A stretch of 64,000 bases of DNA from Streptomyces fagopyri (GTDB lineage: Bacteria; Actinomycetota; Actinomycetes; Streptomycetales; Streptomycetaceae): positions 1,426,001-1,490,000 of the forward strand of contig NZ_CP045643.1 of assembly GCF_009498275.1 (NCBI RefSeq), in the 5' to 3' direction. Of the stretch, positions 5,716 to 30,978 are shown piece after piece; position 1 is the first letter of the stretch; each line of letters opens with the position of its first letter. Under the pieces are notes generated by a model. That model worked only from the letters and a program-made list of their open reading frames with translations. It was not told where the DNA came from and made no database searches. The position numbers were made by a program, and so were the translations under genes.

Positions 5716-6560
5716 GCACCATCACCGCGACCGAGACCTCCGCTCCCCTGCCCGCGCCCGCCACGCGCCCCGACTACCGGGTGACCGGACGCCGGGTGCT
5801 GCGCTCGGAGTGGGCCAAACTGTGGTCCCTGCGCTCGACCTGGATCACGCTCGGCCTGGGGCTGGTCTTCCTGGTGGCCTTCGGTCTCATCGCCGCGGCC
5901 CAGTACAAGTCGAGAATCGATTCCGGCCACCACATGGACCCGGACTTCGCCCGTTCCACCGCCGTCAGCCTGTCGCTGTTCGGTACGAACTTCGCGCAGC
6001 TGGCGCTGGGTGTGCTGGGCGTGCTCGTCACGGCGGGCGAGTACTCCACAGGCATGATCCGTTCCACGCTGGCCGCGGTCCCGCGCCGGCTGCCGGTGCT
6101 CTGGTCCAAGTCGGCCGTCTTCGGCCTGGTCTCACTCGCCGTGAGCACGGTCGGCGTGTTCGTCGCCTTCGTGTTCGCGAGCGGCATCGTGTCCGGTACG
6201 GGCGCGGCCATGACTCTCTCGCACCCGGGTGTGGTGCGCAGTCTGCTGGGCGCCGGCCTCTACCTCGGCCTGGTCGGTGTCATCGGCGCCGCTCTGGGCG
6301 CGCTGCTGCGTTCGGTGGCGGGCGGCATCTCGGTGCTGGTCGGCGCCCTGATGCTGGTGCCCGGCCTGATCTCGCTGCTGCCGAGTTCCTGGCAGGACGA
6401 CATCAGCCCGTACCTGCCCAGCAACGCGGGCGAGTCGATGTTCGCCCTCACCCACGACAGCACCACCCTCGCGCCCGCCGCCGGGCTCGTCGTCTTCCTC
6501 GGCTGGACCGTGCTCGCGCTGGCGGGAGCCGCCTACCGGCTGGTGCGCAGCGACGCCTGA
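5712..6560 (+). CDS. ABC transporter permease
   Basis: 282 residues with about six membrane helices, including LGLGLVFLVAFGLIAAA, LALGVLGVLVTAGEY, GLVSLAVSTVGVFVAFVFA, LGLVGVIGAALGALL, ISVLVGALMLVPGLISLL and a C-terminal AGLVVFLGWTVLALAGAAY. The segment GEYSTGMIRSTLAAVPRR is the cytoplasmic loop typical of ABC-2/BcrB-like permeases. It is translationally coupled to the upstream ATPase through a 4-bp overlap. The pair forms an exporter of unknown substrate. Confidence 0.9.
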   Translation: MSTITATETSAPLPAPATRPDYRVTGRRVLRSEWAKLWSLRSTWITLGLGLVFLVAFGLIAAAQYKSRIDSGHHMDPDFARSTAVSLSLFGTNFAQLALGVLGVLVTAGEYSTGMIRSTLAAVPRRLPVLWSKSAVFGLVSLAVSTVGVFVAFVFASGIVSGTGAAMTLSHPGVVRSLLGAGLYLGLVGVIGAALGALLRSVAGGISVLVGALMLVPGLISLLPSSWQDDISPYLPSNAGESMFALTHDSTTLAPAAGLVVFLGWTVLALAGAAYRLVRSDA

Positions 6561-6650
6561 CGGCCCGCGCTCCACGCGTATCGTCCGCTGTCGGTGCGGT
6601 GCCCGGTCCATCCGGGTGCCGCGCCGCCGTGCCTCGCCCACGATGGACAG

Positions 6651-7943
6651 GTGACACCCGTGACCGCCGACGACACCGCCGGTATGAGCCCCCTGTTCGC
6701 CCGGCTGACCCGCGCCGGACAGTGGCTGCGGCAGGCGGACCGGGCGCGTCCGTGGATGCTGGACACGTCCGTGGTCGTCCTGGTCTTCGTGATGTTCTGT
6801 CTGGCCGACCTGGTGCACGCGCACGACGGCCGCCGCGAACTGGCCGCGAGGTTCACCCGCCCGCCCCTCGCCGGGATGCTGGCGCTGCAGGCCGGACTGG
6901 TGCTGCCGCTGCTGTGGCGGCGCAGGAATCCGTCCGCGGCCTTCGCGGTGATCACGGCGGTCTTCCTCCTGCAGTGGTCGCTCGGTGTGCTGCTGCGCGC
7001 CGACGTGGCCCTGCTGATCGCCCTGTACAGCCTGACGTTGCACGGACCGCTGCGGCATCTGGCGTGGGCCTGTGCCGTCACGGCCCTCGGCCTGGTCCTG
7101 GTCGCCGTGCGGGTCTCCGCCGTGGTGTCCGTCTGGGACGCGCTGTTCTTCCTGTTCAGCACCGCGATCGCGGCCGTCGCCGTGGGGATGGCGGTGCGCA
7201 TCCGACGGGCCCAGCTCGCCGGGCTGCGGGAGCGCGCGGCCCGGCTGGAGATCGAACGGGACCAGCGCAGCAGGCTGGCGGCGGCCACCGAACGCACCCG
7301 GGTGGCCCGCGAGATGCACGACATCGTCGGCCACAACCTCGCCGTCATGATCACTCTCGCCGACGCCGGTGTCTACGCCTCCGACGTCACCCCCGAACGG
7401 GGCAAGCAGGCCCTGCTCCTCATCGGCGACACCGGCCGCCAGGCCCTGGGTGAGCTGCGCCGTATGCTCGGCGTGCTGCGCGAGGAGGCCGAGGCTCCCG
7501 CGCTCAGTCCGCAGCCGGGCATCGCCGACATCGACGCGCTCTGCGCGCGTATCCGCTCCGCCGGCCCTCTGATCACCTACCGGACGGCCGGTGACACGGA
7601 CGCGCTGGACGGCGGGGTGCAGGTGACGGTCTACCGGATAGTGCAGGAAGCGCTGACCAACAGCCTCAAGCACGCCGGAGCCGGCACGCGGGTCCACCTC
7701 ACGATCGGTGTGGAGGGCACACGATTGCGCATCCGGGTCCAGGACACCGGGCCGCATGGCGGCTCGCGGTCCGCCGGTCCCCCGAACGAGGAGGGGCACG
7801 GGCTCGCCGGCATGCGCGAACGGGCGGCGCTGTACGGCGGCACGGTGGACGCGGGGCCGGTGCCTCCGCCCGGCGCCGGATGGACCGTACGGGCGACCCT
7901 CGACCTGACCCCGCTCCCCGGCTCCGAAGGCGGTACCCCTTGA
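6651..7943 (+). CDS. NarL-family sensor histidine kinase
   Basis: 430 residues from the GTG at 6651. GTG 6660 or ATG 6684 are alternatives, and the exact start is uncertain. Four to five N-terminal membrane helices (about 40-185) lead to a dimerisation domain with the HisKA_3 motif [14 protein letters not shown], phosphorylated at His223. A HATPase domain follows, with N-box [11 protein letters not shown] and [11 protein letters not shown]. There is no extracellular sensor domain, so it probably senses within the membrane or works with the ABC permease. It overlaps the response regulator gene by 4 bp. Confidence 0.9.
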
Positions 7944-26043: not shown

Positions 26044-26441
26044 CTATCCGGCGAGGGCGACGTTGTGCATTCGTGCGATGCCGAGCATGGCGTGGTGGAC
26101 GCCGTCGCCTTTGAGGCGGCAGTCGCGGAGGATCTTCCAGGTTTTCATGCGGGCGAAGACGTGCTCGACGCGGGCGCGGACTTGCTTGTGGGACTTGTTG
26201 TGGGCCTGCTTCTAGCCGGGCAGTTCCTTGCCCTTGCGTCGTCGGTGGGGCATCACGAGCCCGGTGCCCGGATAGCCGCCGTCGGCGATGGTCATGGTCG
26301 TGCCGACGGCGGCCTTCGCGCCGGACTCCTCCCATGCCTTGCAGTCGTTGCGGTTGCCGGGCAGGGGGCGGCCAACCACCACGACGAGGCGGGTGTCGGC
26401 GTCGATGACGACCTGGTGGTTTGTCGAGTACCGGTAGTTCT
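26044..26441 (-). pseudogene. IS5-family transposase, C-terminal half
   Basis: The minus strand reads NYRYSTNHQVVIDADTRLVV, GNRNDCKAW, VRARVEHVFARMKTWKILRD and HHAMLGIARMHN to the stop at 26044. An in-frame TAG at 26212-26214 replaces the expected Trp of LPGWK. The sequence continues exactly from the N-terminal half at 30607-30978. The gene was cut by the IS110 insertion and is inactive. Its outer left end is probably the GGGGCTGTCCCG stretch near 25980. Confidence 0.85.
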
Positions 26442-26558
26442 AATAGCTCATCGGTGAGCCCGAGCACGGCAGTGCAAGGGCCCCGGTGCGAGGTGGAAGT
26501 CTGCCGCCGTTCTGAGGCTTTGATCCCTGTGTTCAGACCGGCTCTGCCTCGCTCAGGC

Positions 26559-26781
26559 CCTGCCGGGCGGAGACCTTCGGTAGTTCCGGGACCTTGATCT
26601 CTCGTCAAAGACCGGTCCTGCCCGGCAGGAGCTCGGATCCAGGTTTCATGTCCTCAGCCCGCCGACAGGGGCCACCTCTCAGCAGTTCGCGAGCCATGAG
26701 CTCTCCAGCAGACCGAGGTCCCTGTCGGTCGCTGGAGACACGAACGGCTCATGAGATGGCGTGCCTTGAGCACTTCTATTA
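26559..26781 (+). ncRNA. Bridge-RNA-like region of the IS110 left end, interrupted
   Basis: A first stem-loop has 10-bp arms at 26559-26568 and 26620-26629. Its loop carries CGGTAGTTC (26578-26586), identical to the left target at 26432-26440, and GTCAAAG (26604-26610), complementary to 6 of 7 bases of the right target CTTGGAC. A second module has CATGAGATG (26750-26758), identical to the right end at 30597-30605, and CTATTA (26776-26781). With G29283, the latter restores CTATTAG, the exact complement of CTAATAG at the left end. A stem 26734-26742 with 29291-29298 could close this second loop. IS630 insertion after 26781 breaks the RNA. Confidence 0.72.
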
Positions 26782-26840
26782 CTGACCTTGAAGTCGTCTT
26801 GTCGTAGGGGCTGACGGTTGGTGATCGTCGCGGTAGGCCG

Positions 26841-26896
26841 GAGGTATGAGGTATGAGGTATGAGGTATGAGGTATGAGGTATGAGGTATGAGGTAT
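26841..26896. repeat. Eight tandem copies of GAGGTAT
   Basis: Eight perfect 7-bp units run into the start codon of the IS630 transposase (ATG at 26888 is formed within the last two units). The second IS630 copy has no such expansion. The array probably arose by slippage and could change spacing between promoter and start. Confidence 0.95.
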
Positions 26897-26998
26897 CCGC
26901 AGGGTGGGGGTCTGACCGCGGAGAGGCAAGCGTTCCGCGAGCGGGTCCGGATGGAAGCGGTCGCGATGTTGGGCCTTGACCCCGGATTTTGAACACGT

Positions 26999-27901
26999 CT
27001 ATGCGGCTTGGGCCAGGGTAGTTGCTGTTGGTTGGAAGTCGTCCTCGTAGGCGATCGGGGACCGCTGGCCGAGGCGGGAGTGCCGGCGGCGGGTGTTGTA
27101 TCGGGTCAGCCAGCGGAAGGCGTCGAGCCGGGCCTGGCGCTTGTCCGGCCAGCCTTTGCGGCCCTTGAGTGTCGCTCTCTTGAAGGCGGCGTTGAAGCTC
27201 TCGGCAGCGGCATTGTCCGCGCTGGACCCGACCGCTCCCATGCTTCGCCGGACCCCAGCTGACCTGCACATTTCAGCGAAGGCTCTACTCGCATATTGCG
27301 AGCCGTGGTCCGTGTGCATGATCGCCCCCTCGAGACTGCCGCGAGTCTGCTCAGCGGCCGCCAGGGCGTCGATAACGAGCTCGGCTCGCATGTGATCGGC
27401 AATCGCCCACCCGGCCAGGCGGCGTGAGGCGAGATCGATGACGGTGGCCAGGTAGAGCGGCTTCGCGCCGTTGACCGGCAGATACGTGATGTCACCGACG
27501 TACTTCGTGTTCACCGCGGCAGCGGTGAAGTCACGTTGGATCAGGTCCGGTGCCTTCGCCGTGGCCGGGTCGGCGAGCGTGGTGCGGTGTCGGCGGCGCA
27601 GGCGGACCCCCTCGATCCCGATGGTCCGCATGATTCTCGCGACGCGCTTGTGGTTGACCATAGGGCCGCCTTCGTCGCGGAGTTCGGCGGTGATTCTGGG
27701 GGCTCCGTAGGTGCCGTCGGAGTCCTGGTGGATCTTGTCTATCCGGGCGGCGAGCTCGGCCTCGGCGGCTTGCCGGGCCGCCCTGGCGGCCACGGTGCGG
27801 CGCCAGTAGTAGAAGCTGGAGCGGGCCAGGCCGAGGATGTCGCAGAGCCGCTTCACGCCGTGACGGCGCTGGTGATCCTCAACGAACTGGCAGCGGTTCA
27901 C
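26999..27901 (-). CDS. IS3-family transposase OrfB (DDE integrase)
   Basis: 300 residues. An N-terminal HTH_21 segment (FVEDHQRRHGVKRLCDILGL) is followed by an rve integrase core. The catalytic acids are Asp in YVGDITYLP, Asp in MHTDHGSQY and Glu in AAESFNAAFK. The C-terminal end is TRYNTRRRHSRLGQRSP. Its ATG overlaps the orfA stop by 4 bp, so OrfB may be made alone or as an OrfAB fusion by frameshifting. OrfAB is the active transposase in this family. Confidence 0.95.
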   Translation of the reverse strand: MNRCQFVEDHQRRHGVKRLCDILGLARSSFYYWRRTVAARAARQAAEAELAARIDKIHQDSDGTYGAPRITAELRDEGGPMVNHKRVARIMRTIGIEGVRLRRRHRTTLADPATAKAPDLIQRDFTAAAVNTKYVGDITYLPVNGAKPLYLATVIDLASRRLAGWAIADHMRAELVIDALAAAEQTRGSLEGAIMHTDHGSQYASRAFAEMCRSAGVRRSMGAVGSSADNAAAESFNAAFKRATLKGRKGWPDKRQARLDAFRWLTRYNTRRRHSRLGQRSPIAYEDDFQPTATTLAQAA

Positions 27902-28203
27902 CAGCGCGTCTCCGTCGCGAAATACCGGGCCGCCTTGCGAAGGATGTCGCGCTCTTCCTCCAGCTCACGGATCCTCTTGCGGGCAGCGGCCAGCTCCGCC
28001 TCGACGGCGTCACCACCAGCCGGGACGAAGGCTGTCTGCGAGGAATGGGCTCCGGAACGACGTCCGTCGGCGGCCCGGATCCAGTTCCGCAGCGTCTCGG
28101 TGTTCACCCCGAGATCACCGGCCACAGACTTGATCGTCGCTCCCGGCTTCGACCTGTACAACGTGACCGCGTCCGCCTTGAACTCGGCGGGGTAGTGCTT
28201 CAT
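27898..28203 (-). CDS. IS3-family transposase OrfA
   Basis: 101 residues from the ATG at 28203 (MKHYPAEFKADAVTLYRS). It has a helix-turn-helix of HTH_Tnp_1 type (VAGDLGVNTETLRNWIR) and a C-terminal leucine zipper-like coiled coil (AAARKRIRELEEERDILRK). OrfA binds the terminal repeats and oligomerises with OrfB. An in-frame extension upstream to 28260 crosses towards the element end and is unlikely to be used. Confidence 0.93.
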   Translation of the reverse strand: MKHYPAEFKADAVTLYRSKPGATIKSVAGDLGVNTETLRNWIRAADGRRSGAHSSQTAFVPAGGDAVEAELAAARKRIRELEEERDILRKAARYFATETRW

Positions 28204-29337
28204 CCCCACAGGGACTCCGTTCTCCTGGACCATCAAGATCCAAGTGTCTCCGGTGTCCAAAATCCGGGGTTAGGGCCCGTTCGCCGACGGGCGGGGCAGT
28301 ACGGAGATCGCGAAGGAGTTACGGGTCAGCGTTCGGTCGGTTCAGCGGTGGAGGCATTCCTGGCGGGAGGCCGGCCGGGAGGCGCTCCGTTCCCGCGGTC
28401 CGGTGTCCCGCCCGAAGCTGAATGACCGGCTCTTCGCGATGCTCGAGGAGGAGTTGGTCAAGGGCCCGGTCGCGCACGGCTGGCCGGACCAGCGATGGAC
28501 GCTCGATCGGATCAAGACGCTGATCGGCCGACGGTTCCACAAGTCCATGACGTTGTCCGGGGTCTCCCAGATGCTGCGGCGGCATGGCTGGAGCCATCAG
28601 GTTCCGGGCCGTCGTGCGGTCGAGCGCGACGAGGCAGCCGTTGCCGGCTGGGTGAAGGATGCGTGGCCGCATCTGGAACCACCGCGGCGGCGCTCGGTGC
28701 CTGGATCGTCTTCGAAGACGAGGCCGGATTCTCGATGACGCCGCCGACCTCACGCACGTGGGGCAGACACGGATCCACCCCGGTTATCCGGGTGAGGGGC
28801 CGTTCCCAGCGTCGTTTCTCCGTGGCAGCCCTGTGTTGCTACCGGCCCGGCGAACGCTCCCGCCTGATCTACCGGCCCAAACGGCATACCGACCATAAGA
28901 GCGGCGGCCGCAAGAGCTTCGCCTGGACCGAGTACCGCGACCTCCTCATCGCCGCCCACCAGCAGCTCGACGGACCCATCGTCCTCATATGGGACAACCT
29001 CAACGTCCACAAAGACCGCCGCATGAGGGCCTTCATCGACGCACAGGACTGGATCACCGCCTACCACCTGCCGCCTTACGCACCCGACCTCAACCCCGTC
29101 GAAGGCATCTGGTCAGTACTCCGCCGGACCACCCAGGCCAACACTGCCTTCACCGACCCCGACGACCTCATCCGCCGGCTACGGCACGGCCTCCGCCAAA
29201 TCCAATACCGCAGCCACATCATCGACGGATGCCTCACCGGGACCGGTCTCACACGGACGACATCACGCCTGCAATCTCAGTAGAGCGCCGCGTGCTCCGC
29301 ACAGGTCCAACCTGCAGATTCATACGGAGGCACGGGG

Positions 29338-30573
29338 TTGAACAAGATCTTCTGCGGCATTGACTGGGCGGAAGGGCATCACGACATAGCCCTGGTTGAC
29401 CAGGACGGAACCCAAGTTGCAAAGCTACGGATCAGCGACGATAGCTCCGGCTTCCACGCATTGATGGAACTTCTGGCTCAGCACCGTGACAGCGCAGCAG
29501 AACCGATCCCGGTCGCCATCGAGACGCCCCGCGGGCTTCTCGTCGCCGCCTTGCGGGCCACCGGCCGCCAGATCTACGCAATCAATCCATTGGCCGCAGC
29601 CCGATATCGCGACCGCGCCAGCGTCTCCCGAGCCAAGTCCGACGCAGCGGACGCCCGGGTTCTGGCCAACATCCTCCGGACTGACCGGCATGCTCACCGG
29701 CCTCTGCCCGACGACAGCGAAGCGGGGCAGTCCGTCGCCGTCCTGGCCCGCGCTCACCAGGACGCCATCTGGGACCGGCAACAGATGATCAACCGGCTTC
29801 GATCACACCTTCGCGAGTACTATCCAGCCGCCCTCACTGCCTTTCACGGCGCTGGAAAACCCGGACTCGACTCGCCGCGCGCCCGCGTGATCTTGACTGC
29901 CGCACCCACGCCGGCCGACGCCGCCAAGCTCACCCGTAGCCAGCTGCGCGCGTTGCTCAAGCGCGGTGAGCGTCCACGTTGTGGGATCGAAGCCGAGGTC
30001 GAGCGACTTCGGGCAAACTTCCGCGCGGACTCCCTGCGGCAGCTGCCGCAGGTCGAACAGGCTCTGGGACAGCAGGCAGTGGCACTCATCCGGCAGGTCG
30101 ACGCCGCCTGCGTCAGCGTGGCCCAGTTGGCGGTGGCGACGGAAGAGGCATTCCTCGCGCACCCGGATGCCGAGATCATCACCAGTTTCCCAGGGCTCTC
30201 GGTGCTCTCTGGAGCACGCGTTCTCGCCGAGATTGGAGACGACCGCGAACGCTTCGCGGATGCCAGAGCCATGAAGGCATACGCCGGTGCGGCTCCTGTC
30301 ACACGGGCTTCCGGCCGCAGCCACGTGGTTGTGGCCCGGACCGTCAAGAACCAGCGACTGGCATCAACCGGGCACATGTGGGCCTTCGCAGCCCTGCGCA
30401 CGCAGGCTCCACGTGCCCACTATGACCGACGGCGTGCTGGTGGAGAACGGCATACCGCGGCTCTCAGGAACCTGTTCAACAAGCTGCTCGGCTGCCTCTT
30501 CCACTGCCTACAGCACCGCACGCTGTTCGACCCCGACCGTGCCTTCGTACCACCCACCGATCTTGCTGCCTAA
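29338..30573 (+). CDS. IS110-family transposase
   Basis: 411 residues from a TTG start with GGAGG 9 nt upstream. The N-terminal DEDD RuvC-like domain (FCGIDWAEGHHDIALVD, VAIETPRG, SKSDAADARVLA) is followed by a coiled-coil middle and a C-terminal Tnp_20 domain (ITSFPGLSVLSGARVLAEIG, with the catalytic Ser context, and AYAGAAPVTRASG). IS110 recombinases act with a bridge RNA made from the element's end. This gene looks intact, but the RNA region upstream is broken by an IS630. Confidence 0.94.
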   Translation: MNKIFCGIDWAEGHHDIALVDQDGTQVAKLRISDDSSGFHALMELLAQHRDSAAEPIPVAIETPRGLLVAALRATGRQIYAINPLAAARYRDRASVSRAKSDAADARVLANILRTDRHAHRPLPDDSEAGQSVAVLARAHQDAIWDRQQMINRLRSHLREYYPAALTAFHGAGKPGLDSPRARVILTAAPTPADAAKLTRSQLRALLKRGERPRCGIEAEVERLRANFRADSLRQLPQVEQALGQQAVALIRQVDAACVSVAQLAVATEEAFLAHPDAEIITSFPGLSVLSGARVLAEIGDDRERFADARAMKAYAGAAPVTRASGRSHVVVARTVKNQRLASTGHMWAFAALRTQAPRAHYDRRRAGGERHTAALRNLFNKLLGCLFHCLQHRTLFDPDRAFVPPTDLAA

Positions 30574-30606
30574 GCGCCTACTTGACCCGCCAGAGACATG
30601 AGATGT

Positions 30607-30978
30607 CTTGGACCGCTCGGCGACGGTGTGATCGCGAGTGGGTACCAGGGTGCCGTCCACGATCAGCACGGTGTCCTTCGCGAACCGCTTGCGGGGCTGG
30701 AGAGCGAGCATCGGCCCGAGGTGATCGATGATTCGGTCCGCCGCCGACTTGGAAACCCCGAACAGCGGGGCCAGTTGGCGCATGGTCAGGTTTGTCCGCC
30801 AGTAGGCCGCAACCAGCAGTGCCCGGTCCTCCAGCGGCAGGCTCCACGGCCGGCCCTTGCGGACCGCGTCCGCACCCTCGCGCCGCAGAACCGTCACCAG
30901 CTTGCCGAGCTGCCGCGGGCTCAGCCCGGTGAACGGGGCTATCCAGGACGGCTCCGACGCCGTGATCACACCAGCCAC
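30607..30978 (-). pseudogene. IS5-family transposase, N-terminal half
   Basis: From the ATG at 30978: TASEPSWIAPFTGLSPRQLG, an HTH (NLTMRQLAPLFGVSKSAADR) and the first catalytic strand VLIVDGTLVPTRDHTVAERS. The frame is cut at the CT core of the IS110. The C-terminal half continues at 26441 on the same strand. The match at the joint is exact when the intervening DNA is removed. Confidence 0.87.

Follow-up and report, generated by a model that had tools for sequence, protein, structure and literature searches.

Bridge RNAs are programmable recombinase guides under study and have been described with one target loop; in the bridge RNA of IS621 a 5' stem-loop is followed by a single target loop and a single donor loop (Durrant et al. 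2024, PMC11208160; what is said of this and the other cited papers refers to parts of each). The seekRNA of IS1111 and IS110 elements likewise holds target guides in an RNA from a noncoding region, and natural reprogramming has been reported for these elements (Siddiquee et al. 2024, PMC11187229). TIGR-Tas systems carry a tandem array of two-guide units, and the paper describing them sets single-unit bridge RNAs and TIGR arrays apart as different architectures (PMC12045711). Here we describe an IS110-group element in a stretch of 64,000 nucleotides (nt) of Streptomyces fagopyri (contig NZ_CP045643.1, positions 1,426,001 to 1,490,000), called the window below. Judged from its sequence, the RNA of this element is very probably a tandem array of three target-type loops followed by one donor loop, and one such RNA would choose among landing sites.

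A preliminary description of the locus, made from the letters alone, had recognised a single target loop, here loop 2. Scores in the following lines are those of R2, a covariance model of a single unit, and L numbers denote loci.

26440-30606, plus strand: IS110-group element, with a CT core within its left end, an empty IS5-type site in its own genome and relatives with the same ends.
26487-26551, plus strand: target-type loop 1 (43.7 bits), stem with two-sided changes, used by L013/L089 and by L012; guides CCGCCGTTC (26504-26512) and TGTTCAG (26530-26536).
26559-26629, plus strand: target-type loop 2 (59 bits at 26561-26625), matching its own flanks at 15 of 16 positions; guides CGGTAGTTC (26578-26586) and GTCAAAG (26604-26610).
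26664-26728, plus strand: target-type loop 3 (26.4 bits, E 0.0096 over 426,640 bases), 17 pairs; putative guides CAGCAGTTC (26680-26688) and CCAGCAG (26705-26711).
26730-26781, plus strand: donor loop, shortened by a nested insert, with exact matches to the element ends and uninterrupted in relatives; left guide CATGAGATG (26750-26758), right guide CTATTA (26776-26781) plus G at 29283.

R2 found all three target-type units of the window in the left end, ahead of the one donor loop. An earlier model of 81 positions (R1) did not list loop 1, probably owing to overlap of neighbouring units, and the trimmed R2 was used instead. Relatives were collected in three sets: the best 80 of 102 found, up to 30 loci from a search in which 121 of 392 genomes matched at E <= 1e-60, and up to 30 loci from the 49 of 391 genomes with a match in the third set; L093 and L172 are the same relative. 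These carry one to four target-type loops. In L113 R2 gives four target-type units before the donor loop (two are weak, at E 0.074 and 0.022), and in L015 four units are seen by eye, the first two being near-duplicates, while R2 lists three. The model also detects the donor loop in several relatives (e.g. L108, 2748-2814, E 7.8e-4), hence the two types of loop, donor and target, seem to be units of a single kind. The stems are supported by 12 pairs changed on both sides in the alignment A1 of 18 rows, compared with a shuffled mean of 3.4 and none of 500 shuffles as high; six of these pairs lie in loop 1 (of its 15 pairs), five in loop 2 and one in loop 3. It should be noted that most matches of R2 were weak when it was run over 198 genomes of the phylum (50 genomes, E <= 0.5), and that it is unsuitable as a genome-wide finder.

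Downstream of the recombinase gene the right end of the element carries the remaining signals of the junction.

30582-30606, plus strand: right end, with TTGACC (30582-30587), the match to the left donor guide (30597-30605) and T30606.

When the right end is joined to CTAAT (26440-26444), a circle would contain TTGACC-18-TCTAAT, and the promoter-like sequence TTGACN-17/18-TCTAAT was found in 63 of 70 distinct junctions (the exceptions being L167, L043, L061, L068, L112, L133 and L145). We propose that the element excises as a circle, that its joined ends form the promoter TTGACC-18-TCTAAT, and that this promoter transcribes the whole array as one shared RNA. It is possible, though we consider it rather improbable, that the array is instead processed or transcribed into separate RNAs with one target loop each, the donor loop being supplied in trans. 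Such a division would fit the IS621 complex, which takes its target and donor loops from two RNA molecules (PMC11208158), and the processing of tigRNA arrays (PMC12045711); the one conserved junction promoter upstream of the entire array speaks against it, separate promoters not having been searched for. The single shared RNA is the form assumed in what follows.

The hairpin at 26559-26629, in which the preliminary description had seen a stem, has a minimum free energy of -39.8 kcal/mol (z -4.51), with none of 200 shuffles equally stable. When the left end was shuffled 2000 times with its dinucleotides preserved, only 11 shuffles equalled the match of the left guide CGGTAGTTC to the left target. 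The proposed pairing of GTCAAAG with the right target is present at 6 of 7 positions, but this match alone is not significant (870 of 2000 shuffles), so the evidence for it comes from the relatives. As for the donor guides, CATGAGATG recurs exactly at 30597-30605 (2 of 2000 shuffles), although not directly before the right core as had been claimed, T30606 intervening; a T occupies this position in 70 of 73 elements and, as the relatives suggest, stands there because it belongs to the promoter-like sequence of the junction. CTATTA plus G29283 is the complement of CTAATAG at the left end (1 of 2000), and all four matches together were reached in none of the 2000 shuffles, in keeping with the view that chance is an unlikely source.

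Covariation with the targets was seen in the relatives. Of 24 close aligned rows, counting that of the window, 18 share one IS5-type site and the others have different flanks. The donor guides are the same with few changes across these rows (departures in L019, L022 and L048), and the target guides vary along with the flanks in L017 and L092: L017 has the flank CAGGTGGAT before CT and CAGGTGGATC in its loop, and L092 has the flank AGGACCAT followed by CTCGTC and a loop holding AGGACCAT and AGACGAG. The guides of L093-L095 match their own flanks at 16 of 16 positions. When whole left ends were scanned, the own target beat every swapped target in 34 of 61 elements. For a count with located loops we used a profile (A3) built from 25 target-matching loops and a sample of 73 elements with both ends, 62 of which had at least one recognised unit; alternative left-end candidates of L119, L131 and L043 were removed by hand before counting. 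Own flanks were matched at 13 or more of 16 positions in 55 of the 62 elements, compared with 27 of 3298 swapped pairings in a control that uses the same loops. Seventeen of these 27 are an unused loop fitting the real target of a relative and six come from L035 and L097, whose own flanks are unmatched and whose loops fit the targets of relatives; these 23 represent guides common to relatives, and the remaining four look like chance. The covariation of guides and flanks that the preliminary description had proposed as a check was thus found, and its assignment to an IS110 bridge RNA is supported, but the assignment was incomplete in that the loops at 26487-26551 and 26664-26728 had been missed. 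The donor guides also predict the element ends in many relatives, an agreement that is partly by construction, as the ends were called using these guides.

By the same profile the 55 matching elements have one unit in 19 cases, two in 19, three in 16 and four in one; these are undercounts, as loop 3 of the window escapes the profile. Among the 36 elements with at least two units the best match was given by the first unit in 18, by the second in 17 and by the third in one.

The use of different loops is seen most directly in L088 and L089, which are 94.8% identical over 1666 nt. There are 8 mismatches along the 310 positions of their left ends, and one of these falls within the putative left guide of loop 3. 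The two share all 63 nt compared in loop 1; in loop 2 a single one of 74 positions is changed, outside the guides, and the guides of both loops are letter-identical. L088 sits in the IS5-type site (loop 2 match 15/16), and L089 sits at CCCCCACTT followed by CT and GACC (loop 1 match 15/16). This is the 3' end of a gene whose open frame has 169 codons, and its last 50 residues have matches in 54 of 199 genomes. L013, from Streptomyces caniscabiei, agrees with L089 in its left end and flanks, and L147 has an uninterrupted version of the site (joined flanks 98%, gap-free at the junction). L012 carries its own version of loop 1 (14/16) and is located at a different gene end (...DDPPF-stop). By these matches the elements use different target loops, loop 2 in the window and loop 1 in L013/L089 and L012. 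Further candidate loop pairs were set aside: in L169 unit 2 scores 15 and unit 1 also scores 13; in L170 the right match of unit 3 is only 4/7; and in L144/L167 the left flank fits loop 2 and loop 1 has a guide of the L093 type, the right end not being found; the ends assigned to L167 lie at another place in its stretch.

Several observations weigh against this reading. Seven of the 62 elements have a unit score below 13 (L024 12, L035 7, L036 12, L047 9, L061 10, L097 8 and L099 9), and 11 of the 73 are without a recognised unit (L167, L049, L050, L051, L056, L060, L102, L107, L109, L110 and L111). Since the 25 loops used to train the unit profile were picked for their flank match, their recognition is not independent. 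L089 and L013 are one insertion, and the use of loop 1 in the close clade rests on two insertions; the empty site of L012 is represented by L187 at 89%, but the alignment extends only 8 nt beyond the junction. Finally, no insertion using loop 3 was found in the close set. This last point, together with the loss of the loop 1 right guide in L038 and L052 and the resemblance of the first two L015 units to a recent tandem duplication, would suit elements with one working target loop each, the other hairpins being decaying copies left from re-targeting by tandem duplication. We hold this to be unlikely: L088 and L089 occupy the targets of different loops with identical guides in both, the loop 1 stem goes on pairing, with two-sided changes of 6 of its 15 pairs in one row or another, and the right guide of loop 1 is retained in 16 of 18 A1 rows. 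We retain the tandem array, with more than one loop in use. That the guide matches are due to chance or to shared ancestry of one insertion site, as the common IS5-type site of 18 of 24 close rows and the frequent chance match of the right target (870/2000) might hint, is hardly credible in view of the many different targets, the scan in which the own target was best in 34 of 61 elements, the located loops (55/62 vs 27/3298) and the contradicting cases L017, L092, L045, L093-L096, L113 and others.

By simple count, all 16 of the retained loop 1 right guides predict TTC followed by a stop, CTGA in 15 and CTAG in L092, and in L185 we find TTC TAA after ...DDPPF at the insertion. As the element starts with CTAATAG, an insertion after TT yields TTC TAA, hence the host product is unchanged. 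From the sequences, loop 1 reads Phe-stop gene ends and the CTAATAG end of the element would restore the stop, which suggests insertion sparing the host gene product. Loop 2 reads a transposase gene, IS5-type in the window; the flanks of L017 and L092 we take, from their motifs, to be IS5-like and IS256-like. Chromosomal ssb genes as the aim of loop 1 in the window found no support: two of the three SSB matches in the own genome end in DEPPF-stop with CCCCCCTTCTAG, but the right guide of the window predicts CTGA. When 16 genomes were searched for targets resembling those of loop 1, matches were numerous, with lower but sizeable controls, and pointed to no clear gene; in the own genome there were 27 compared with 14 in the control, and the forward control was equally high in some genomes.

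Around the loops, guides, covariation, two-loop use by near-identical RNAs and empty sites documented here at the level of sequence, the following course of insertion may be proposed. The recombinase would employ the donor loop, paired with the element's own junction, and one target loop would pair with the chromosomal site on both sides of the CT core, with strand exchange, and presumably catalysis, at CT. The window copy would have entered the IS5-type transposase gene via loop 2, a loop apparently re-aimed in the close relatives L017, L092 and L124, and loop 1 would have directed insertion to host-gene 3' ends (L013/L089, L012), the CTAATAG end there supplying an in-frame stop. In IS621, once strands have been exchanged, the bases that follow the right guides pair with the partner strand (PMC11208158). 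Of the 73 elements here, 61 have a base complementary to target base -1 directly behind the right donor guide (0 of 10,000 shuffles; the lineages are related). In unused loops this handshake base agrees in 34 of 54 cases, which is only suggestive, the register being fixed and that of loop 3 maybe off by one.

The element and its target site were delimited as follows.

29338-30573, plus strand: IS110 recombinase of 411 amino acids (PF01548, 127.8 bits; PF02371, 51.8 bits; NF033542 'IS110 family RNA-guided transposase', 187.7 bits, cut-off 140), with the PDB relatives ISCro4 and IS621.
30607-30978, minus strand: first part of the IS5-type transposase gene that is the target, the rest lying left of 26439 (PF13613; L114; NF033581 below its cut-off).

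The rechecked CT cores are at 26440-26441 (left) and 30607-30608 (right), and the location between CT cores inside an IS5-type transposase gene, given earlier, was confirmed by L114, an uninterrupted copy in the same genome. The joined flanks match L114 at 90% over positions 5-153 of 154 nt, and the window flanks give a single 85% alignment with 7 gaps that runs through the junction; flank matches 1-83 and 81-154 overlap by TCT, placing the junction within 3 bases. The empty sites L114 and L147 indicate insertion at the CT core without further target duplication. The claim that joining the flanks restores the gene held in part, as the frame runs on through the junction and stays open for 203 codons before a stop is reached; the target may have been broken before the IS110 element arrived.

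A long noncoding end lies upstream of the recombinase gene, left ends are conserved in the relatives, and the distance from the stop codon to the right core is 33 nt. By these features we assign the element to the IS110 group as a predicted bridge-RNA-guided insertion sequence. Membership of the IS1111 group was rejected: it needs a long noncoding region downstream of the gene, as in the IS1111 elements with their downstream RNA region and subterminal inverted repeats (PMC11187229), whereas here the region is upstream. No Rfam model matched within the window at gathering scores. With IS621 (PMC11208160, PMC11208158) the element shares a predicted RNA in a long left end, the CT core and a DEDD recombinase, a left guide reading the bottom strand and a right guide reading the top strand, and also a donor loop for its own ends, the handshake base and a putative joined-end promoter. 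Unlike IS621 with its one target loop, it has three target-type units in the window and up to four in relatives (L113), and relatives have used different ones. The account of seekRNA in IS1111/IS110 elements, in the parts cited, describes no array (PMC11187229). On the sequence evidence the array of target loops is new, departing from the single target loop plus donor loop of IS621, and no multi-target-loop bridge RNA was found in the literature searched, a weak absence as this included few subscription papers and no bioRxiv.

The likeness to TIGR-Tas lies in the tandem array of two-guide units; unlike TIGR-Tas, the array here ends in a donor unit and would serve transposition (PMC12045711). 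A TIGR-Tas system proper, with a Tas protein beside a guide array, was rejected, as the gene is a full IS110 recombinase and its match to TIGR_Tas_endo (NF052498; 25.6 bits at residues 219-369) is below the cut-off of 100. This weak match accords with the Nop-type RNA-binding domain reported as common to TIGR-Tas and IS110 (PMC12045711). We lean towards the view that in an actinobacterial IS110 clade between one and four target loops are arrayed with a common donor loop, that one element picks among programmed sites (transposase genes and gene 3' ends with a restored stop), and that the loops multiply by tandem duplication and diverge, linking bridge RNAs to TIGR-like arrays. If so, the system tolerates several target loops per RNA, the change of targets in IS110 elements would be explained by loops that duplicate and then drift, and the clade would be an intermediate form, standing between bridge RNAs with a single unit and the guide arrays of TIGR systems.

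Some further observations concern the relatives. L102, L107, L109, L110 and L111 have a common flank, CCTGCGCTC followed by CTGTCTCC, for which no recognised loop accounts. In the left ends of L046, L047 and L051 a target match resembling a left guide lies about 135-143 nt ahead of the donor guide, and L046 has a better right-guide match in the proximal loop, as if the guides occupied separate hairpins. At L016 a second IS110-type element (6447-7075, minus strand), which has a unit resembling a target loop, is found near the first.

The window copy is itself interrupted by the insert that shortens its donor loop.

26782-29282, no strand assigned: nested IS630-type element carrying IS3-type genes (Pfam DDE_3, rve, HTH_21 and HTH_Tnp_1).

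TA is found at both joints of the insert, and the left end of the relatives is unbroken at this place. The insert divides the right donor guide and parts the RNA region from the recombinase gene, hence the window copy is probably disabled in cis and not self-mobile, as far as can be read from its sequence. Near the left end of the nested IS630-type element (26843-26896) we also observed about seven head-to-tail copies of GGTATGA.

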